Shown here in pieces: positions 8,511 to 20,275 of a DNA stretch of 20,275 nt (positions within the stretch are counted from its first letter, which is position 1; each line of letters starts with the position of its first letter). Made by a program: the position numbers and the translations under genes. A model generated the notes under the pieces. It was not told the DNA's origin and ran no database searches. It saw nothing but the letters and a program-made list of their open reading frames with translations. Where the stretch lies: positions 1 to 20,275 of the IMG/VR virus record IMGVR_UViG_3300020202_000432; one strand, given 5' to 3'. The stretch comes from a virus.

Positions 8511-9140
8511 CTAGCTCGCCGCCAAGTACGAAAAGCTCGCGCGAATCGAAATCGTGGACATCTGGGCATTCGTCCGCTGCGTGACACCCGGCACGCCGTA
8601 CACCAAGATGGACGTCGTCGCAGAGCCGACATGGAGCCCGAGTGCCACGCTCGAATCGGTCCACGGCGCCGTCACACCAGCAAACTGTCCCGTCGCGCTC
8701 GTGAACGGAAGGCCACCAATCGCCGCATTCGCTCCGCTGGCGGTGGACGGGTATGAGACATACAGCACAATCGTGACCAGCCGACCGACCTTCACGTAGT
8801 GACAGCCGTTGTTCACGATGGTTAGGCCCGCGCCACTCGCGTCCGTGGGCGTCCACGTGTCTGTCTCGTAGAAGGCCACCTCCCCGCCAGCGACCGTGAG
8901 CGTGCCACCGATGGTGGCATCGCCGGAGACGTGCAACTCGGCCCACTGCGCGCCGCTGCTGCCCAGATGCCGGTTGTTGGCTGTCGCATCGGGCAACAGG
9001 TCATGCGCCAGCCCGGTCCGGAGCGCCGACCCGATGGCCGTTACTTCCTCGTAGACGACATTCAGGTCTGCCGCCTGGGGGTAGTCGACGCCGTCCACGA
9101 TCGACGTGAACGACGGATCAGACGTTGGATAATTCGCCAT
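8511..9140 (-). CDS. Tail-fibre-like protein (209 aa)
   Basis: The N-terminal 50 residues (FTSIVDGVDYPQAADLNVVY) look like a virion-attachment segment. The middle has LGSSGAQWAELHVSGDATIG and a repetitive Gly-rich beta pattern. The C-terminal 110 residues (TWTPTDASGAGLTIV, YVKVGRLVTIVLYV, SGANAAIGGLPF) match the small beta-sandwich tip domain common on phage fibres and spikes. It is short for a fibre and may trimerise or attach to a larger part. Its ATG overlaps the hub gene's TGA by one base (TGATG), so the two are coupled. A receptor-binding role is inferred. Confidence 0.7.
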   Translation of the reverse strand: MANYPTSDPSFTSIVDGVDYPQAADLNVVYEEVTAIGSALRTGLAHDLLPDATANNRHLGSSGAQWAELHVSGDATIGGTLTVAGGEVAFYETDTWTPTDASGAGLTIVNNGCHYVKVGRLVTIVLYVSYPSTASGANAAIGGLPFTSATGQFAGVTAPWTDSSVALGLHVGSATTSILVYGVPGVTQRTNAQMSTISIRASFSYLAAS

Positions 9141-11029
9141 CAGATGCCACTCAGCGCCCCTTCGGGCACCATCTCCGTTGCGTAGCCGTACACCTTGAAC
9201 TCGGCCTGTCCCGTGTAGCGGAAGCGGAACGCGAGCGTCCGCCCTTCTGCCGTCAGCGGGAGGACGAACGGCTGCTGCAGCCGCCCGGCCCCACCATAGA
9301 GCCGTGAGGAGGTGCCGTAGAGCGCGGTCGTCGTGCCATACGGCAACAAGCCCGCGTCAATGTCGATGTCCTGCGATCCCTTGTTAGCCCCGTCCACGAT
9401 GGGGCTCAGGCTGAAGATCCCGGCCGCCGGCTGAAACTCCAGCACGCCCTCGGTGAACGAGGACACGTAGCCGCCCGTCGCGTGCGTGCTCGTCTCGCCG
9501 TCGCACACCAGATCGGCGCCGTCCGCGCTGTGGCCGGTCGCCTCGTTGGCGAGCTTGGCGACGGTCAGCCCCCACGACAGCAGCCGCCCGCGATTCCCCA
9601 ACGTCGGTTCCGACCCATCCCACGGGATGTAGCCACCGACCGTACGATCCGTGGTGGTCCACGCGGGAATCTCCTGCGTGCGCGTGCGATTCAGGTCGAG
9701 CACCAGTTCACCCGCGCTGCCCCATGGGTAGAGGCGCGGCACCGCCACGCGCAGTTCCTTGCGCAACCCGTGGTACACGCACGCCACCTTTTCGAGGTCC
9801 GCCGTCGAGGACCGCTGCATCAGATCCCGCCACGCCGGGTCGATGTTGTAGGACAGCAGGCGGTCACTCGCGCCGTCGAAGATGTAGACGCCTTCGGCCG
9901 CGGCGTGGATGATGCCGTTCTCGATCAACTCCACCGCCCGCGGCCCGAGTGCCCCCGCCTGCGCGCCGAGCGCCGGTCGCACCTCGAAGTCGAGCGACGT
10001 CTGCCCGATGATCACGAACGGCTTACTGGCCTGCCCGAAGACCACCAGCGTGTCGCCCTGTGCCACCGCGGCCGCGATGTCGTCGCCCTTCTCGAAGGGG
10101 ATCTCGATGTAGAAGAACGTCGGCCACGTCTGCGGCTCGAAAATCTGCGTGAAGTAGAGCCGGTTGCCGACCCAGCCCCACCAGCGGTTCTTCCAGACGA
10201 TCGCCGTCACGATGCCCGCCTCCGGCTTGTCGTGGTCGCTCGGCGCTTCGCTGTTGCTGCCCCACGTCGCGCTGGTGATGTCCCGCGTGGTCGTGGTGTT
10301 GTCGTACTCCGCGTACTTGCGGCGCACGGTCTCGCGGGCCGTCACGTCGCGGACGTAGAGGACGATCTTGTCCACCTGCGGATCGCTGGAGGCCGTGACA
10401 CTGACGCGGATGGTCAGGTTCGCGCCGGACACCGCCTGCGTCGCAGTCGCGGACTCGTTCCCCGTGTGCCCGAGCTCGTCGTCCTGGTAGCCGTAGGACA
10501 CCTCGTAGGTGTTCCCGCTGATCAACGAGCCACCCGAGACCGCAGAGAGCCCCGGTGCCGCGGCCGGCGGGTCGATCCCCATGTCCGTCCACGTGGTGCC
10601 GTCCGTCGTCTTCTTGGCGGGATTGACGCCGTCGAACACCGCCACCAGATTCCGGTCGTAGGGGAAGTAGTGCTGCGTCGTGCTGCTGCGGCCAGCGAGG
10701 ACAGCCGCGCCCCAGACACCCGCGTCGGACGGCTTGTAGACCGACCCGTTGTCGCTCGCCAGCGTGAACGGCACACCCTCGGCCAGGTAGACGCGCCGGC
10801 CGCCCTGAATCCGCCGATTCCCTAGGCTGGTCGTCGAGAACGACGTCCACCCCGGATAGGTGACGAGCGCGCCCGGCTCCTGCAGGCTCCAGTTCCGCAG
10901 CAGGCGGGCCTGGGACGGCTTCAGGAGCGACGGGGACACGCGCAGCTCGAGCCCGCCCGACAGGTCATCGACCCGCAGAAGTTGCGGGGTTTGGGCGATC
11001 CGCGTCCGCGTGGTCTTCAGGCTGGCCAT
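9140..11029 (-). CDS. Tail hub/stabilisation protein, P22 gp10-like (629 aa)
   Basis: The opening VDDLSGGLELRVSPSLLKPS and RLLRNWSLQEPGALVTYPGW is the usual start of podophage tail-stabilisation (packaged-DNA stabilisation) proteins of the P22 gp10 kind. Beta-rich repeats follow (SYGYQDDELGHTGNESATAT, WKNRWWGWVGNRLYFTQIFE, AVAQGDTLVVFGQASKPFVI), in keeping with a propeller-like fold. The protein would close the head-tail channel and carry fibres. The ATG at 11029 has only a distant GAGG. It lies 18 bases from the ATG of the divergent secreted-protein gene at 11048, so the operon is interrupted here by an opposing gene. Its C-terminus is translationally coupled to the fibre gene. Confidence 0.75.
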   Translation of the reverse strand: MASLKTTRTRIAQTPQLLRVDDLSGGLELRVSPSLLKPSQARLLRNWSLQEPGALVTYPGWTSFSTTSLGNRRIQGGRRVYLAEGVPFTLASDNGSVYKPSDAGVWGAAVLAGRSSTTQHYFPYDRNLVAVFDGVNPAKKTTDGTTWTDMGIDPPAAAPGLSAVSGGSLISGNTYEVSYGYQDDELGHTGNESATATQAVSGANLTIRVSVTASSDPQVDKIVLYVRDVTARETVRRKYAEYDNTTTTRDITSATWGSNSEAPSDHDKPEAGIVTAIVWKNRWWGWVGNRLYFTQIFEPQTWPTFFYIEIPFEKGDDIAAAVAQGDTLVVFGQASKPFVIIGQTSLDFEVRPALGAQAGALGPRAVELIENGIIHAAAEGVYIFDGASDRLLSYNIDPAWRDLMQRSSTADLEKVACVYHGLRKELRVAVPRLYPWGSAGELVLDLNRTRTQEIPAWTTTDRTVGGYIPWDGSEPTLGNRGRLLSWGLTVAKLANEATGHSADGADLVCDGETSTHATGGYVSSFTEGVLEFQPAAGIFSLSPIVDGANKGSQDIDIDAGLLPYGTTTALYGTSSRLYGGAGRLQQPFVLPLTAEGRTLAFRFRYTGQAEFKVYGYATEMVPEGALSGI

Positions 11030-12117: not shown

Positions 12118-12340
12118 CAGTCGGTTCCTTTAGCGGCAATGGACGCTTCGCCAGGCGCACGGCCTGCGGTCCGAGATACTTCTGCTCCACCAACGGGCCG
12201 GTCGCATGGCCCACGATGCGCGGCGCTCCCACGTTCAACACGCCGGCAATCTTCCGCTCGCCACACGCGCACACCGGGCTCGCCACCTTGTCTGGGTCGA
12301 CGTCGCCGGTATGCCCACAGCGCCAGCGCACCGTCACCAT
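12092..12340 (-). CDS. Zinc-ribbon-like small protein (82 aa)
   Basis: The N-terminal part reads TVRWRCGHTGDVDPDKV and is followed by VCACGERKIAGV. RCGH and CACGE provide three cysteines and a histidine, a compact zinc-binding knuckle. The remainder is basic with a Lys/Pro-rich tail (LAKRPLPLKEPTDGD). The ATG at 12340 overlaps the TGA of the adaptor gene by seven bases, and its end overlaps the next gene by 26 bases, so three genes interlock here. The first 102 codons of the longer open frame to 12646 are only a shadow of the adaptor gene. Function unknown; nucleic-acid or virion binding is possible. Confidence 0.6.
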   Translation of the reverse strand: MVTVRWRCGHTGDVDPDKVASPVCACGERKIAGVLNVGAPRIVGHATGPLVEQKYLGPQAVRLAKRPLPLKEPTDGDQQPGV

Positions 12341-13086
12341 CGCCACGGATCCCCGGTGCGTGGCCGACGCAACGCGCGCCGGTAATCCACCGCCAGCCGC
12401 ACGCGCCCGCCGTTGCGCGGGGCTTGGTCGGCCTGATACTTCGTGACGATCGCGGCGAACATCTTCAGTTGCAGTTCGCGCCCTTGGTCGTTCTTCCGCA
12501 GCTTCTCGAGCATCGCCGCGGCGTAGTGGACGCAGGCCCGGTGATACGGCCGCAGCACCGTTCGTGGAGTCGCGTTGCCGAACGGCTCGTGGCTGTCGTC
12601 CGTCATGTCCGGCGGCTGCGCCACGTAGGGCACCAGCACCGACCATGTTTCCGCCACCGGCACACTCGGCGCCGGCACCAGCACGAGATACGTGCTGCCT
12701 CCATCCGCGCGCACGGTCCAGCAGTCCGGCACGCCGGCGGATTCTGCGCGCCAGTTCGGGCGCGTCTGGTTCAGCGTCTCCTCTGCGACGTACGGGAGGT
12801 CCGGCCCCTCGGTGTAGCTCGTGGTCGACGCCCCGACCCGCTGTAACGAGGCGCTGGTCTGCGAGGGCCGCAGGTAGTCCGTGAACGCCGTTTCGAGGTC
12901 GTATTCCTGAGTCCCTGACACGAGGGGCAGCGTGCCGCGTTTGACGTAGCAGCCGGTCTGCTCGGCAAACACGCGCTGCCCCTCGTTCACATAGCGTTTC
13001 CGCAGGACGGTCGTGAACCGCTGGCTGGTGTCGGCGGACCCCAGCTCCGTTGTCAGCTCCGTGCCGTACAAGTCGGAAAAGACCAT
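12334..13086 (-). CDS. Head-tail adaptor (connector) protein, P22 gp4/T7 gp11-like
   Basis: This 250-residue protein from the ATG at 13086 begins with helices (RFTTVLRKRYVNEGQRVFAE), followed by beta segments (RGTLPLVSGTQEYDLETAFT, STYLVLVPAPSVPVAETWSV) and a C-terminal helix (ACVHYAAAMLEKLRKNDQGR). This helical-then-beta layout is typical of podophage adaptors that dock under the portal ring. The longer frame to 13158 would add an Arg/Ser-rich extension overlapping the upstream gene and is rejected. No obvious ribosome site is seen, so coupling to the upstream stop 13 bases away is likely. Position between capsid and tail hub supports the call. Confidence 0.7.
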   Translation of the reverse strand: MVFSDLYGTELTTELGSADTSQRFTTVLRKRYVNEGQRVFAEQTGCYVKRGTLPLVSGTQEYDLETAFTDYLRPSQTSASLQRVGASTTSYTEGPDLPYVAEETLNQTRPNWRAESAGVPDCWTVRADGGSTYLVLVPAPSVPVAETWSVLVPYVAQPPDMTDDSHEPFGNATPRTVLRPYHRACVHYAAAMLEKLRKNDQGRELQLKMFAAIVTKYQADQAPRNGGRVRLAVDYRRALRRPRTGDPWRW

Positions 13087-13099
13087 CGACGCGGACTCG

Positions 13100-13709: not shown

Positions 13710-14633
13710 CTAGGCCCCCTGCGTCGCCGCGACGTTGCGCCAGTCGAACGAGTCCCACACCTGCCGCAGCCGGATCGAGACGATCCAGTTGCCGGTCTTG
13801 GGATCCTGGCGTGGCGGGTTGAGCCGCGGCTTCACGCGATCGACCTGAATCAGGCCGTGCGCCGAGGTCTTCTTCGCAATCAGGTAGACCGCGTCGGCGT
13901 CGGCGATGTACTCCCACACGAGGGGCGTCAAGTTCATCGTGCCGCCCTTCAGGTGGTTGATGTCGTTGTCCGCGGTGCCCTGCAGCTTCTCCGAGCGGCA
14001 GATCCGCAGCGCCAGCCCCTCGTTGTCGGGATGCACCACGAGGAAGAAGTCACGGGCCGGGCGCATCAACTGCCCCGACTCGAGCTTCGTATTGGTCCGC
14101 ATGTCGGCACGCAGGGTGTCGAGCAGCGACGTGGACAGGTCCGCATCGACGGTCGGCTTGTTGCGCGCCGTGCCCCCGCGCTTCAGCGTGTGCGCCGTCG
14201 AGAACAGCGCCACGCCATCGGCCGTCGTCTGCGAGCTGAACCCGTTGTTCAGAACCGCCGCCGCCTGTGTCTCCTGCAGGATGCGGGCGGAGAGGCCGAG
14301 GTACCGCGAGTGCTGCGCGAGGACGTCGTAGTCGTCGTCTTCCTGCGCCGTCTCGGTGTACTGGAAGCCCATGCCGTACTCCCGCGGCGTGAAGTCCTTG
14401 GAGTACCCCGGCATGATCTGGTCGAAGCTGTACTCCTCGCCCTCACCCTTCGCCGGCATGGCCCCGAACGGCGCCAGGGACTGCTTGCGAATGAACTTGT
14501 GCGTGGTGCTGACGTTCTTGAACAGCTTCTTGTGGGTGGCCTCGTTCTCTTGCAGGCCTTCCCGCGTGAAATCTTCGATGACCTTCAGGACCTGATCGCT
14601 CAGCGCCCCGAAGACTCCTGATGTCTGTGCCAT
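13710..14633 (-). CDS. Major capsid protein, HK97 fold
   Basis: This 307-residue protein shows QYTETAQEDDDYDVLAQHSR, a long spine-like helix, the capsid signature TADGVALFSTAHTLKRGG, then LLDTLRADMRTNTKLESGQ and a C-terminal domain with DFFLVVHPDNEGLALRI and YIADADAVYLIAKKTSAHGL. The ALFSTAH motif followed by helix and beta segments is typical of HK97-fold major capsid proteins of podoviruses and Mu-like phages. AGGAGA at good spacing before the ATG at 14633 supports the start. It follows the decoration gene by 18 bases, and a terminator-like hairpin lies after it. It is the most abundant product expected from this window. Confidence 0.88.
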   Translation of the reverse strand: MAQTSGVFGALSDQVLKVIEDFTREGLQENEATHKKLFKNVSTTHKFIRKQSLAPFGAMPAKGEGEEYSFDQIMPGYSKDFTPREYGMGFQYTETAQEDDDYDVLAQHSRYLGLSARILQETQAAAVLNNGFSSQTTADGVALFSTAHTLKRGGTARNKPTVDADLSTSLLDTLRADMRTNTKLESGQLMRPARDFFLVVHPDNEGLALRICRSEKLQGTADNDINHLKGGTMNLTPLVWEYIADADAVYLIAKKTSAHGLIQVDRVKPRLNPPRQDPKTGNWIVSIRLRQVWDSFDWRNVAATQGA

Positions 14634-14651: not shown

Positions 14652-15158
14652 CTAGGGCTTCAGCAGGCCCTGCTTGCCGCTGGCGGCGCGCACGATGACC
14701 GCCGCATTCACATCGCCGTGGACGCAATTGCCCGAGGTGCCATCCGGCTTCGGGCCGAACGCCACGACACGCACCACGACGGTGGACGTCTCCGTGCGGT
14801 CGACGCGCCAAATCACGTTGGTGCCGTCCGACACCAGCCCGAACTCGTTGCCGATGTCGTCGTTGTCGAGCGTCTGGGTGTCGCCGATCACCGCGTGGAA
14901 CTCGGCCTCGGCGTCGAGCATCCACACCTGAATGTCGGTGCCCTCGACGCCGCTCGCGTCCTTCGCGGCAAAGCCAACGACCGTGCCGTCCGGATCCGCG
15001 GCGGCAGCGGCGACCTGGTTCCCCTTGTCGGTGGTGGTGTTGAGGATCAGCGGGGCGCCGACCTTGAAGGTCTGCGACGGCGCTTCAGGAAACGTCCGCG
15101 TCCTGACGGCGCGCGCGGGGCGGATGTAATGCCCCTTGCTAATGCTGTAGGTGGCCAT
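14652..15158 (-). CDS. Capsid decoration (cement) protein
   Basis: This 168-residue protein begins MATYSISKGHYIRPARAVRT, then a mostly beta region with SQTFKVGAPLILNTTTDKGN, GTVVGFAAKDASGVEGTDIQ and VWMLDAEAEFHAVIGDTQTL. Small beta-rich proteins of this composition directly upstream of the capsid gene usually coat and stabilise the head. A longer frame to 15332 exists, but GGGAGG just before the ATG at 15158 and the non-protein-like extension favour 15158. No membrane segment or enzyme motif is seen. It is transcribed with the capsid gene 18 bases downstream. An adjacent 360-base leader may control both. Confidence 0.7.
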   Translation of the reverse strand: MATYSISKGHYIRPARAVRTRTFPEAPSQTFKVGAPLILNTTTDKGNQVAAAAADPDGTVVGFAAKDASGVEGTDIQVWMLDAEAEFHAVIGDTQTLDNDDIGNEFGLVSDGTNVIWRVDRTETSTVVVRVVAFGPKPDGTSGNCVHGDVNAAVIVRAASGKQGLLKP

Positions 15159-15520
15159 GCGGTGGCCCTCCCTCTCGCTCGCGGACAGCTCACGCCGACC
15201 ACGAACAAATGCAATGAGATGGAGGTCGGGTTGTGTGCCGCGCGAGCCGCTCCGACCGTGCTGCGGAGATCGCGCCGAACACTCGCTAACGGGGAGCGAC
15301 CCGAGCACGGAATGGCCGATGCCGTGCTGCACCGAACGCGCGTCAGAGTGCGCGACCCTCTATGGCGTCAGTCCGGGAGCCACCACCAGAACACCGACAG
15401 ACGGGCCGATGATCCGACCGTCCGAGATCACACGTCAGACTGAGGAACCAGCGCCGCACCACCGAAGCGATGCGGCCCTAGTCCGGCTGTCCGACGCGTT
15501 CCCAAGGAGGTAGTTGGAGG
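15159..15520 (-). other. Structured 362-base gap upstream of decoration/capsid genes
   Basis: This is the longest gene-free stretch in the structural operon. Open frames in it are shadows without ribosome sites. It contains a two-part hairpin, CGCGA (15241-15245) with TCGCG (15270-15274) and CTCCG (15250-15254) with CGGAG (15264-15268). There is also a 7-bp hairpin AGCACGG/CCGTGCT at 15304-15310/15322-15328. The minus strand carries ACCTCCTT near its 5' end, complementary to a Shine-Dalgarno consensus. It may be a capsid-mRNA leader, promoter or small RNA; no clear -35/-10 pair was found. Confidence 0.4.
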
Positions 15521-15717: not shown

Positions 15718-16461
15718 CTACAGCGTGATCCGCTCGCGCTGGCCTTCGGAGATCTGCAGGTCGATCCCGCGATGCACGAAGCTCCCCGCCTCGTCGGCGT
15801 TGTGCCCCATGTTCCCCGCTGCCGCCGCCGTGCTGTCCGCCAGGTAGTCCTGCAGCTTCGACTTCGAGGACAGCAGGCCATCCCGCAGCATCGCGTCCCG
15901 GCGCTTCTTGTAGGCGTACAGCTTGCGCGGAATCTTGTGCAGCACTTCCTGCCCGCGGTCCCCCTTGCGGACGAACCCGTCCGTCTTGTCCTCGGAGACC
16001 ACCATCTCGCGGGATTGCAATTCGTCCCACTGCACCTTGACGTAGCCCTCCTGCAGCGCCTGCTGGAGTCGGCCTTCCTTGGTGCCGTTGAACCAGCGCA
16101 GGTGCCAGTAGCGCTGCTCGCCCTGCGGGTCCTCTGACACAGGCGTCTCGCCCTTGAGCCGAATGTCTCCGCTCGCGGCGACGCCTTCCACCACCCGGCG
16201 CTCGAAGACCTCAATCCCCGGATAGTCGGCGTGCTCCTGCAGCAGCTGCGCGAGCTCGGCATCCAGCTTCGCCTGCTCGTCGTCCTGCTCCAGCGCCTTG
16301 GCCGACGTGCCGGTCTGCGCGGCCCGCAGTGTCTCGATGGTCTGCTGCTGCTCGGTCACGATGTCGAGCAACTGGTCCATCTGCGCGCGCACCGCAGCCA
16401 GTTCGTTGGGCTGCTGATCCGCGCCGGTGTCCACTACCGTCTCTGCCTTCTTCTTCGCCAT
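15718..16461 (-). CDS. Coiled-coil virion-assembly protein (247 aa)
   Basis: A coiled coil fills residues about 20-78 (LAAVRAQMDQLLDIVTEQQQ, ALEQDDEQAKLDAELAQLLQ). A compact domain follows, with GEQRYWHLRWFNGTKEGRLQ and REMVVSEDKTDGFVRKGDRG, and then a basic helical C-terminus. No signal peptide or enzyme motif is seen. It sits between the probable scaffold and capsid genes, so a scaffold-partner or head-assembly role is plausible. Its ATG lies three bases after the TAA of the preceding gene. Confidence 0.6.
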   Translation of the reverse strand: MAKKKAETVVDTGADQQPNELAAVRAQMDQLLDIVTEQQQTIETLRAAQTGTSAKALEQDDEQAKLDAELAQLLQEHADYPGIEVFERRVVEGVAASGDIRLKGETPVSEDPQGEQRYWHLRWFNGTKEGRLQQALQEGYVKVQWDELQSREMVVSEDKTDGFVRKGDRGQEVLHKIPRKLYAYKKRRDAMLRDGLLSSKSKLQDYLADSTAAAAGNMGHNADEAGSFVHRGIDLQISEGQRERITL

Positions 16462-16464
16462 CGG

Positions 16465-17379
16465 TTACTCCAGGTCCACGCCGGCGGCGTAATCGAGCCG
16501 TGGGCGCGAGGTTGAGGCTGTGGCCGGGTCGAGGCCGTGATCGCGATACACCTTCTGCAGGGCCGGCGAGAGGCGGATGGCCGCCTGTCCCGGTGCGCGT
16601 CGCGCCGTGGTGTCTGCTGGAATCGCAGGCGGCGTGGACGGCTTCGCCGCGGCTGCCGTGGCCGCCGCGCCCTGTGCCGGCGTCAACTTGCCTTCACGCA
16701 CCGCACGCCCGATCGCGGCGTCCCATGCGCGCATCGCCACCTTGCCATCACGGAGCATCTGCGCGCCGTTAGGCATCGACAGCAGCGCGTCGAACTCCTC
16801 CTTGACCACCGCCTGCACGTCGGGCGAGTAGTTGGCAGCAACATTCAGGGCTTCGGCGTAGTGCTTGCGGGCCACGTCGAAGGCGGCCTGGTGCTGCATG
16901 GGCGCCACTTCCTCGCGCACCGTGGAGCGGATCAGGCCGTCCACACGCTTGGCGGCGTCCAGGTCGGGCACGCGCTGCCCGTTCTCCACCTTGTACAGGC
17001 CCACCTGCTCCGCCACCGCTGCGAGACGCTCGCGCTCGGCTTCCCGGTTGGACTTCGGCGGCTCAGCGAGCACGCGGCCTTCGAGGATGGCCTGCTGCAT
17101 CTCCGGCGTCAGGCGCTGGAGGACCGGGGCGTAGTGCGTGATCTGCTGCTCGAGCGCGCGGCGGGCCTTGCGCTCCTCGATCAGTTCGGCCAGGAGGCCG
17201 TTGGGCTTCTTCTCCGGCGCGGGTTCAGGTTCGGCAGCGGCGGCGGGTTCTTCGGCCGGGGTCGCTTCTGCCGCAGGTGTTTCCTCCTGGGCAGGTTCAG
17301 CGGCAAGCTCCTCGGCCACCGCAGTTGCCGTCTCGCCAGTATCCAAGTCAATTTCGCCGGGGCGCAGTTCGTCACTCAT
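16465..17379 (-). CDS. Probable capsid scaffolding protein (304 aa)
   Basis: The first 60 residues are strongly acidic and Ala/Pro/Glu-rich (AAEPAQEETPAAEATPAEEP), a common opening for phage scaffolds. The middle is alpha-helical and charged (LLAELIEERKARRALEQQIT, REAERERLAAVAEQVG). The C-terminus is Ala/Pro-rich and basic. Location between the portal and capsid genes matches usual scaffold placement. AGGA precedes the ATG at 17379, which overlaps the upstream gene by ATGA. A protease or other head-assembly role cannot be excluded, but no catalytic motif is seen. Confidence 0.6.
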   Translation of the reverse strand: MSDELRPGEIDLDTGETATAVAEELAAEPAQEETPAAEATPAEEPAAAAEPEPAPEKKPNGLLAELIEERKARRALEQQITHYAPVLQRLTPEMQQAILEGRVLAEPPKSNREAERERLAAVAEQVGLYKVENGQRVPDLDAAKRVDGLIRSTVREEVAPMQHQAAFDVARKHYAEALNVAANYSPDVQAVVKEEFDALLSMPNGAQMLRDGKVAMRAWDAAIGRAVREGKLTPAQGAAATAAAAKPSTPPAIPADTTARRAPGQAAIRLSPALQKVYRDHGLDPATASTSRPRLDYAAGVDLE

Positions 17380-17507
17380 GCCTGTTCCTCACGTTCCTCA
17401 GTAACGCGTTCCCAGCCAATGCGATACCTATCCAGCACCCATGTCTCCCCTGTCTGACTGTCCAGCCGATACAGACGCCCGTCGTACTCCAGAAATACGA
17501 ACTTCAT
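17376..17507 (-). CDS. 43-residue hypothetical protein
   Basis: The protein begins MKFVFLEYDGRLYRLDSQTG and ends ETWVLDRYRIGWERVTEERE plus three residues, which suggests a small beta-beta-alpha unit with a charged tail. It interlocks with both neighbours by ATGA overlaps (17504-17507 and 17376-17379). AGGAGA lies about nine bases upstream of its ATG, which strongly supports translation despite the length. No family is recognised. It may be a minor head protein or a regulatory peptide ahead of the scaffold. Confidence 0.65.
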   Translation of the reverse strand: MKFVFLEYDGRLYRLDSQTGETWVLDRYRIGWERVTEEREEQA

Positions 17508-17851
17508 GCGCTTGCTCTCTCCTGTGCCGCTGCTGTCTCACAACTCGTCCGCGTGCGGAACGAGATCACATGCGAATCCTTCAACTCACCCGTCTCGCCA
17601 GTCCGCACGTCGAACGGTACGGCGAACACCCCACCGAACTGCCCGACGCGCCATACATTGATCGGCGCCCCACTCGCCCGGATGGCCTCGATCATCTCCA
17701 CGCGCAACTGTTCGGCGATGGCGTGGAACAACTCCGCGTTCTCCAACGCGACATACGGCACGGTGGCGTACACGGCATTCTCTGTGTGCAGGATGCCGTC
17801 GCGGTTCTTGGACGTGTTGTCAGTGCGGACCGGCTCAGCAAACACGCTCAT
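17504..17851 (-). CDS. Hypothetical phage protein (115 aa)
   Basis: This mixed alpha/beta protein has LHTENAVYATVPYVALENAE, then HAIAEQLRVEMIEAIRASGA, then PINVWRVGQFGGVFAVPFDV. It has no membrane segment. The alternating hydrophobic pattern suggests a compact soluble fold. The start overlaps the GroES-like gene's stop by four bases and the stop overlaps the 43-residue gene, so it is co-translated with both. No known domain is recognised; a structural or capsid-assembly accessory role is suggested only by position. Confidence 0.6.
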   Translation of the reverse strand: MSVFAEPVRTDNTSKNRDGILHTENAVYATVPYVALENAELFHAIAEQLRVEMIEAIRASGAPINVWRVGQFGGVFAVPFDVRTGETGELKDSHVISFRTRTSCETAAAQERASA

Positions 17852-18141
17852 GCGGCATCCCGTCTCGGAATGACGGCGGTAATCTCCGTCTCACGCAGAA
17901 ACAGCGCCTCGTGCTGGTCCGTCAACGGCAGCGGATCGCCTGCGCTCGGCGCGAATGCCACCCAATCGCCGGGCGCCACCTCGTGACACTCCGGGCCGAC
18001 CTTCAGCACGCGGCCACACGTCACGGGCGGCGGCAGCGCGTGCGCCAAGATGAGGCCGGAGGCGTGATCGCGCTCCTCCGGCTGGTGCGGCAGCAGGACG
18101 AGCACGCGGTTCTTCATCGGGCGGATCTGATCGAGCCTCAT
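17848..18141 (-). CDS. Phage-encoded GroES-like co-chaperonin (97 aa)
   Basis: The length equals cellular GroES. The protein opens MRLDQIRPMKNRVLVLLPHQ, like the conserved IRPLxDRVLV start. Residues about 18-34 form a charged mobile loop ending ASGLIL, whose L-I-L (residues 30-32) aligns with the I-V-L tripeptide that binds GroEL. Then GRVLKVGPECHEVAPGDWVA matches the GxVxxVGxG...VKxGDxV strand region, and the C-terminus LFLRETEITAVIP matches the final LxxxExDIxAVI. A strong AGGAGGT seven to eight bases before the ATG at 18141 decides the start. The protein should cap host GroEL and could help fold the capsid protein, as phage T4 gp31 does; that part is inferred. The CDS overlaps both neighbours by ATGA. 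Confidence 0.8.
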   Translation of the reverse strand: MRLDQIRPMKNRVLVLLPHQPEERDHASGLILAHALPPPVTCGRVLKVGPECHEVAPGDWVAFAPSAGDPLPLTDQHEALFLRETEITAVIPRRDAA

Positions 18142-18467
18142 GCGCGGGCACCTCCTGTCAGCGGACGGCGACGAAGGCCCGCGAAGCGATCGACCTTGCC
18201 CCGCGACTGCGCCTCTTTCAGTTGCCGGATGCGCTCCTCCGGCCAGCGGACATTGGCCCGCATGCCGGCGAAGGTGTCGAGGATGCGGGAGGACGCGAAC
18301 GGCCACTCTTCCGGCGTTACCGCTTTGCGTTCAGCACGTAGGACGGCTTCGAGGGCGGCTGGCCCCCACCGCTCATCCATGTGATCGAGGTACAGCCGCC
18401 AGCCGGGCGACTGGATCATCGCTTCGAGCTCGGCGCGCTCGGCGTCCGGTGTCAGGATGTCAGCCAA
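18138..18467 (-). CDS. Small helical phage protein with a TTG start (109 aa)
   Basis: The frame reads from a TTG codon at 18467, with GGCGG nine bases upstream. The protein is helical and charged: LTPDAERAELEAMIQSPGWR, then LEAVLRAERKAVTPEEWPFA, then PEERIRQLKEAQSRGKV with a basic end. No domain is recognised. It overlaps the preceding Tat-like gene by eight bases and the co-chaperonin gene by ATGA. TTG is the only sensible in-frame start, an unusual choice in this operon. A head-accessory role is possible. Confidence 0.55.
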   Translation of the reverse strand: MADILTPDAERAELEAMIQSPGWRLYLDHMDERWGPAALEAVLRAERKAVTPEEWPFASSRILDTFAGMRANVRWPEERIRQLKEAQSRGKVDRFAGLRRRPLTGGARA

Positions 18468-18696: not shown

Positions 18697-20275
18697 CTAC
18701 GGCGCCCCCACTTCGCTCAACATCTGCTGCAGCAACTGCTCACCCCCAAAGCTCGGCGCCGGCCCCCCGCCAATCCCCGGCATCCCCGGTGGCAGGGCGC
18801 CTTGTGGCGGCATCGCGGGTGCCGGTGGCGTGAACTCGCCGATGAACGCCTGCACATCCCGCGGCTTCAACTCCGTGACCAGCATCTGCATCAGCGCCTC
18901 GCCGAACTCCGGCGATGCCACGCGCGCCGCGATCTGCGGGTTCGCCTTCGCCCACTGGAACGCGAGGCTGACGCCATCCAGCAGCATCTTCATGCGCCGG
19001 TTCGGGTCTGCGCTCTCGACGGAGCCCCGCGGCTTGAAGCGGAACTGACCGGCCAGCATGTCGGCGGTGAATCGCCCGGTGAACTCGGGATCCTTGCGCT
19101 GCACCTTCGAGACGACGGCCGCCGGGGCCATCATCCCGCCGTCCTCCTGATCCCGCAGCGCCTGCACTTCGATGGCGTGAATCAACTCACCCAGGTCTTC
19201 CATCGCCTCCTGCAGGTTGCCGATCGGGTCATCGGTGCGGGTGAAGCTCTCGCGCGTCGCCATCTGGTTCTCGCCCAGCGTGCGCGACTTCTCCGACTGC
19301 TGGCCGATCCCGATGTCATTGATCCCGATGATGCGTTGGCCGTCGGCCACGCACTGCTGTTCCTTGTTGATCGCCTGCGGCGTCACGTCATCGAACTCGA
19401 ACGGCTGGACCTCGTTCATGCTCGCCACATGGATGGTCCGCCCCGGTCCGAACGGCTGCAGTTCCGGGTCAAAGCTGGAGCCGTGCAGCACTTTCATCGG
19501 CGCATTCGCCTTCATCGTGCCCCGGTCGGCGTTCATGTTCCGCCACGCCGTGTGCTCCTCGATCGTCGTCAGGAGCTTCGTCAGGATCATCGAGTAGGGG
19601 TAGACCGAATACGGGCACGGGTAGGGCGCAAACACCACCGTCCGCCAGCGATTCAGCCAGTCGCACTGAAGATCCAGCAGCGCATCGTGCGTGTCGGACA
19701 CCACGGCGCTGTAGAGCCGTAACCCGTGCCCCAAGTCCAGCCACGCCTGCACGCGCCACAGCTCGAACTCGACGAACTCCTCCCCCTGCGCGACGTCGAC
19801 CGAGACGCCGGCCCGGTCCTGCTCGGCCCGCTGCTGCCGCTCGTTGCCGCTCCCCAGCTTTTCGGCGTCAGCCTTGCTCCACTGCTTCGCGGCGACCTTG
19901 CGATCCAGTTCCGCCTTGGTGATGTAGAAGCGCGTCGCACGGCCCCAGACCTCCCGCTCGTCCTCGGCATGGGATGGCAGGAACAGGAAATCCTTCATGG
20001 ACCGCCTGCGGACATAGGCCCCGCGGCGCTTCTGGTCCTCGTACTCGAACTTCACCTCGACGTAGCAGGTCGGGTCCGCGCAGGGCATCGGGCGACCGTC
20101 CTCCCCAATGACCGGCAGCATCTCGCCGTCTTGGATCAGGATGTTATTCAGTTCGTCCCGCTGCGGCTCGGCGCGAATGACTTCGACGCGGATGATCGGC
20201 TCGGCGTCCTCGCAGACTTCTGCGACGGTGCCGGTCTCCACGAGTGCCGAGGTGACGACGCGCTTCAGGGTCTGC
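18697..20275 (-). CDS. Portal protein, P22-like (5' end truncated by the window)
   Basis: The frame is open from the right edge; a GTG at 20241 is only an internal codon (TSALVETGTVAEV). Portal features include VKFEYEDQKRRGAYVRRRSM, LRLYSAVVSDTHDALLDLQC and the central helices ENQMATRESFTRTDDPIGNL plus MEDLGELIHAIEVQALRDQE. A Pro/Gly-rich C-terminus follows (PMPPQ-type repeats ending QQMLSEVGAP). This matches P22-type portals, the dodecameric ring through which DNA enters and leaves the head. About 100-200 N-terminal residues are probably missing. The TAG abuts the next ATG, so the downstream head genes follow directly. Confidence 0.8.
   Translation of the reverse strand, partial: QTLKRVVTSALVETGTVAEVCEDAEPIIRVEVIRAEPQRDELNNILIQDGEMLPVIGEDGRPMPCADPTCYVEVKFEYEDQKRRGAYVRRRSMKDFLFLPSHAEDEREVWGRATRFYITKAELDRKVAAKQWSKADAEKLGSGNERQQRAEQDRAGVSVDVAQGEEFVEFELWRVQAWLDLGHGLRLYSAVVSDTHDALLDLQCDWLNRWRTVVFAPYPCPYSVYPYSMILTKLLTTIEEHTAWRNMNADRGTMKANAPMKVLHGSSFDPELQPFGPGRTIHVASMNEVQPFEFDDVTPQAINKEQQCVADGQRIIGINDIGIGQQSEKSRTLGENQMATRESFTRTDDPIGNLQEAMEDLGELIHAIEVQALRDQEDGGMMAPAAVVSKVQRKDPEFTGRFTADMLAGQFRFKPRGSVESADPNRRMKMLLDGVSLAFQWAKANPQIAARVASPEFGEALMQMLVTELKPRDVQAFIGEFTPPAPAMPPQGALPPGMPGIGGGPAPSFGGEQLLQQMLSEVGAP

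Follow-up and report, generated by a model that had tools for sequence, protein, structure and literature searches.

Gene content of the window

The DNA analyzed here (hereafter the window) is a stretch of 20,275 nucleotides from the IMG/VR virus record IMGVR_UViG_3300020202_000432, and its features are collected in Table 1. The gene on which this work is centered is an ORF of 97 codons opening with ATG and preceded, at a distance of 9 nt, by a Shine-Dalgarno sequence, both of which were read directly in the sequence. ATGA overlaps couple it to both of its neighbors, that is, the upstream small gene at 18138-18467 and the downstream one at 17504-17851, which lie on the same (-) strand and for which Pfam and PHROG searches returned no known family. 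A 152-aa version of the same frame, starting at GTG, is unlikely, since it would reach deep into the upstream gene.

Table 1. Features of the co-chaperonin gene and of the head module in the window.
Feature	Coordinates	Strand	Basis
SU10-type adaptor protein	12334..13095	-	Pfam SU10_adaptor, 1.3e-16
Major capsid protein (MCP), 307 aa, putative client	13710..14633	-	Pfam Phage_capsid_4, 2e-15
Likely homologue of the relatives' ~190-aa gene directly upstream of MCP	14652..15173	-	Top match of the profile
Homologue of the relatives' ~160-aa gene two upstream of MCP	15718..16461	-	Profile 5.1e-7, hhalign probability 84%
Probable scaffold (position and size only)	16465..17379	-	Place corresponds to the relatives' ~300-aa gene
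Cpn10/GroES-family co-chaperonin gene, 97 aa	17848..18141	-	Pfam Cpn10, PHROG 3188, AlphaFold2 model
Short turn PECHEVAP at the usual roof-hairpin site, residues 50-57	17971..17994	-	Alignment
Mobile loop, residues 16-42	18016..18096	-	Low pLDDT, alignment
Hydrophobic tripeptide LIL, residues 30-32 (GroEL binding predicted)	18046..18054	-	Alignment
Shine-Dalgarno sequence AGGAGG	18151..18156	-	Read in the sequence
Portal protein, truncated at the 5' end where the window stops	18697..20274	-	Relatives' portal profile, hmmsearch 6.9e-5, hhalign probability 92%

An earlier note on this DNA, made from the sequence alone, had placed the gene among head-assembly genes, and this is indeed the case: the MCP (3.2 kb downstream), the SU10-type adaptor, and a portal homologue surround it. 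The divergence of the portal is such that neither Pfam nor PHROGs recognized it, and it was found only by a profile of syntenic portals. The profile of the relatives' MCPs matched the window MCP at 8e-110, a value obtained with the window's own sequence in the profile. The likely homologue directly upstream of the MCP is the top match of the corresponding profile with an E value of 0.075 (hhalign E 5e-4, probability 31%), and the probable scaffold exhibits no similarity to Pfam, to PHROGs, or to the relatives' profiles. Overall, the gene order of the window is that of its relatives, with one extra small gene (17504-17851). Neither a GroEL gene nor a tRNA was found in the window, which is a 20-kb fragment only. 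At its other end, the window also carries a P63C-domain (antirepressor-like) gene on the (+) strand (353-1402; PHROG 2384 at 5e-118).

Family membership and predicted fold

The protein matches Pfam Cpn10 (PF00166) at 1.3e-9 with 38.4 bits, above the curated cut-off of 21.1, and PHROG 3188 (co-chaperonin GroES) at 1.4e-11; the next match, PHROG 931 (E 0.0085), is the family of T4 gp31, which itself scores 3.7e-50 there. These matches lie far above chance and bear out the previous description of a 97-residue protein with a GroES framework. That description also had it as otherwise divergent, in agreement with its 38 bits to Cpn10 against the 98-132 bits scored by the GroES proteins from 31 genomes within a single bacterial phylum. 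None of the models of housekeeping GroES (NCBIfam PRK00364) gave more than 28 bits, where their cut-offs are 96-142. Since the Pfam cut-off is exceeded and the housekeeping cut-offs are far from being reached, we consider the protein, as judged from its sequence, a true but divergent member of the GroES family. It had no match in annotated phages (tblastn) or in genome contigs, and the search of IMG/VR yielded a single true relative (L002); a second match (L003) was discarded, since the protein it comes from is unrelated and the similarity, which spans 14 residues, is due to chance.

The single-sequence AlphaFold2 prediction reached a pLDDT of 36 and gave no usable model; the prediction based on an alignment of 44 sequences (the window protein and 43 IMG/VR relatives) reached 85.6, with its minimum in the mobile loop. 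The mobile loop is disordered in free GroES. When the model was compared with known structures (Foldseek, VIA-align), Cpn10 structures ranked first and gp31 was among the matches: Z was 11.5 for Cpn10 of Thermus, 11.5 for GroES of Xanthomonas (rmsd 1.1 over 65 residues), and 10.4 (2cgt; rmsd 2.1 over 70) and 9.5 (1g31) for T4 gp31. Most of the named viral models matched by this fold are labeled co-chaperonins. Thus, the structural comparison with both GroES and gp31, which the earlier note had proposed as a check, supports a predicted GroES beta-barrel fold.

A conserved position in related phages

The MCP of the window is shared, at less than 60% identity, by 21 phage records. All ten inspected reference records with a related MCP encode a Cpn10 protein, in nine cases between the portal and the MCP, and the order is as a rule portal, GroES, a gene of ~300 aa, two smaller genes, and MCP, as seen in HTVC023P, CRP-901, Pag-Yong1, DSL-LC04, ct2G2228, QDWS535, and others. 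The gene occupying this slot in GB2A is annotated as hypothetical, yet it matches PHROG 3188 at 1e-10. The exception is ct7ZZ929, which has no Cpn10 gene in the capsid module and a match elsewhere (MW202601.1, 13798-14013, (+) strand), so that adjacency of GroES to capsid genes is not obligatory. In IMG/VR, a relative of the slot gene is present in at least 593 stretches, and the same MCP lies 2.0-2.2 kb downstream of it in 39/39 loci, these being the ones that extend 3.5 kb downstream among the 80 fetched. Hence, related phages do carry the same gene beside those of the capsid, as the earlier note had suggested looking for. Among three bacterial chromosomal (prophage-like) regions with a related MCP, two have a Cpn10 gene ahead of it; no Cpn10 was found near the MCP of chromosomal region L195. 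GroEL (Cpn60) was found in none of 19 related records, while the controls were detected in 14 cases out of 14; the absence of a phage-encoded GroEL from these records implies that the partner is the GroEL of the host.

In the literature, GroES is reported to belong to the core of HTVC023P-type pelagiphages, which comprises 13 genes (PMC9599517), and it appears on the genome map of CRP-901 (PMC10149686). The window gene lies on the same strand as the portal and MCP genes and between them, as in HTVC023P-like podoviruses, and it shares with the phage co-chaperonins of PHROG 3188 the family, the slot, the strand, the MCP lineage, and the lack of an accompanying GroEL. A co-chaperonin between portal and MCP is already known from many podovirus-like phages, and the window copy is not new in kind. 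It differs from many PHROG 3188 proteins, however, in having no N-terminal extension.

Mobile loop and roof

The lengths of the mobile loop and of the roof were compared in one alignment embedding 45 cellular GroES, 13 Nitrospirota GroES, 43 phage co-chaperonins, gp31, and the window protein. The hydrophobic tripeptide reported previously is present in the window protein as SG-LIL. The loop ahead of it counts 13 residues, versus 10-11 in cellular, 11-12 in Nitrospirota, and 11 in 40/43 phage proteins, and 15 in gp31; the part that follows, tripeptide included, counts 13, as in cellular and Nitrospirota GroES, versus 14 in gp31 and 17-18 in 40/43 phage proteins. The earlier note had also read a host adaptation in the charge pattern of the loop, an idea that did not hold: the net charge ahead of the tripeptide (-2) falls within the cellular (-4 to +2) and Nitrospirota (-3 to -1) ranges and is therefore unremarkable (phage proteins, -5 to +4; gp31, -5), and the SG ahead of the tripeptide also occurs in 14/45 cellular GroES.

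Beside the loop ahead of the tripeptide, which is two residues longer, what sets the window copy apart is the roof, a feature absent from the earlier note. The spacer at this site is 17-18 residues long in cellular GroES, 10-28 (mostly 18) in phage proteins, 10 in gp31, and 8 both in the window protein and in 13/13 Nitrospirota GroES. As far as the alignment can tell, the missing roof beta-hairpin is a real departure of the window copy; this hairpin is typical of Cpn10/GroES and not defining, since undoubted members lack it. Because of its absence, the dome of a window lid should be open at the top. At the opposite extreme, two slot co-chaperonins (L094, 8001-8450; L095, 8001-8384) carry a 28-residue spacer, and the former has the stretch VTCGRVLKVGP in common with the window protein.

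Three further comparisons help to place this protein. E. coli GroES shares the fold, the mobile loop, and the tripeptide with it, but has a roof hairpin and is about 32% identical. T4 gp31 shares the GroES fold, the lack of a roof, a longer loop ahead of the tripeptide, and a similar SG-L-I-hydrophobic motif, but its sequence similarity to the window protein does not reach significance in the pairwise comparison (z 0.6), and no capsid genes flank gene 31 in the T4 stretch that was read. The Nitrospirota GroES share both the roof spacer of exactly 8 and the 13 residues from the tripeptide onward, the closest case being that of L174 (aligned stretch VGPEVKEVKVGD against VGPECHEVAPGD); their best matches, however, reach 31-33% identity, and their tripeptide is I/L-Y-V/I rather than LIL. 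All 13 of them (L135, L165-L176) are roofless and carry this unusual tripeptide, unlike the other 45 bacterial GroES.

The divergence of the protein (38 bits to Cpn10, a long branch, an odd composition, and a lost roof) might suggest that it has kept the GroES fold as a structural or regulatory protein no longer working with GroEL, for instance as an accessory of the virion or of the scaffold. Some relatives in the same slot would fit such a fate: the co-chaperonins of the QDWS535 group (L012, 3531-3872; L125-L130) have long, degenerate mobile loops, most of them without a clear GG-hydrophobic tripeptide, and may have lost the usual mode of GroEL binding. The loss of GroEL binding, though, is expected to erode the tripeptide, and in the window protein LIL is intact and followed by a loop of the cellular length, which makes this explanation highly improbable.

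Relationships and possible host

The best pairwise scores of the window GroES are practically equal for cellular (102), Nitrospirota (100), and phage (102) proteins. Phylogenetic trees that include gp31 and L129 place it among cellular GroES; without these two it falls among phage co-chaperonins, a position that is not secure (support 68/98), and in the trees it forms a long branch with an odd composition. Its loop geometry is closer to cellular GroES than to that of the phage slot, and its roof length is like that of Nitrospirota. The only close bacterial match obtained for a gene of the window points in the same direction: the nearest bacterial relative of the P63C gene lies in a Nitrospira MAG (57% identity), with relatives also in Halomonas, Rhizobium, and Mycobacterium at 53%. 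Relatives of the window MCP, at no more than 33% identity, are rare in both phyla examined, occurring in 2/296 Nitrospirota and 2/398 Pseudomonadota genomes. One may speculate that the usual slot co-chaperonin was replaced by a roofless GroES acquired independently from a Nitrospirota-like host whose own GroES is roofless, a scenario that we regard as doubtful. If it were true, phages would swap lids matching the GroEL of their host, and selection would act on the slot and not on one gene lineage.

Proposed function and possible client

On the whole, we suggest, with a probability of about 0.72, that the gene encodes a phage lid of the GroES family that works with the host GroEL in the folding of one or more phage structural proteins, most likely the MCP. 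What was observed, and forms the basis of this idea, is the family, the fold, the intact tripeptide, the gene overlaps, the conserved gene order, and the absence of GroEL from the relatives. According to this model, the co-chaperonin would be produced from the head operon, its translation being coupled to that of its neighbors, and should assemble into a heptameric lid; the mobile loops would dock on the host GroEL through the tripeptide LIL, and the resulting chamber would fold one or more structural proteins during head assembly, the most probable client being the MCP encoded downstream. By analogy with gp31, it is plausible that such a lid retunes GroEL. In T4, gp31 is essential for the folding of the capsid protein gp23, and its lack of roof loops together with its longer loop is credited with providing a larger chamber, suited to the 56-kDa gp23 (PMC6318259). 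As a point against the model, the window MCP, with only 307 aa, is well below gp23 in size and gives no size-based need for a lid of the phage's own; the argument based on chamber size does not carry over to the window. In the literature found on this phage group, no interaction or client is shown for any member.

The small size of the MCP leaves room for a different division of roles, in which the protein is still a lid for the host GroEL and serves the portal, a large tail protein, or folding in late infection at large, its place in the head operon reflecting timing only. Two proteins, the portal with at least 525 aa and one of 629 aa (9140-11029), are indeed larger, and in ct7ZZ929 the Cpn10 gene is located outside the head module. 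Nevertheless, a slot kept near the MCP in every one of the 39 IMG/VR loci and in two chromosomal regions is more than timing requires, and we consider a client other than the MCP unlikely.

The finding can be summarized as real, of a known kind, and strongly conserved, with a particular twist that is modest. Most of what is known about phage lids for the host GroEL comes from T4. That a large group of podoviruses keeps a GroES gene in its capsid module, and no GroEL, suggests that capsids are commonly folded with the help of chaperonins. A roofless lid in this slot also offers a natural comparison for the function of the roof and for whether phage lids track the GroEL of their hosts.
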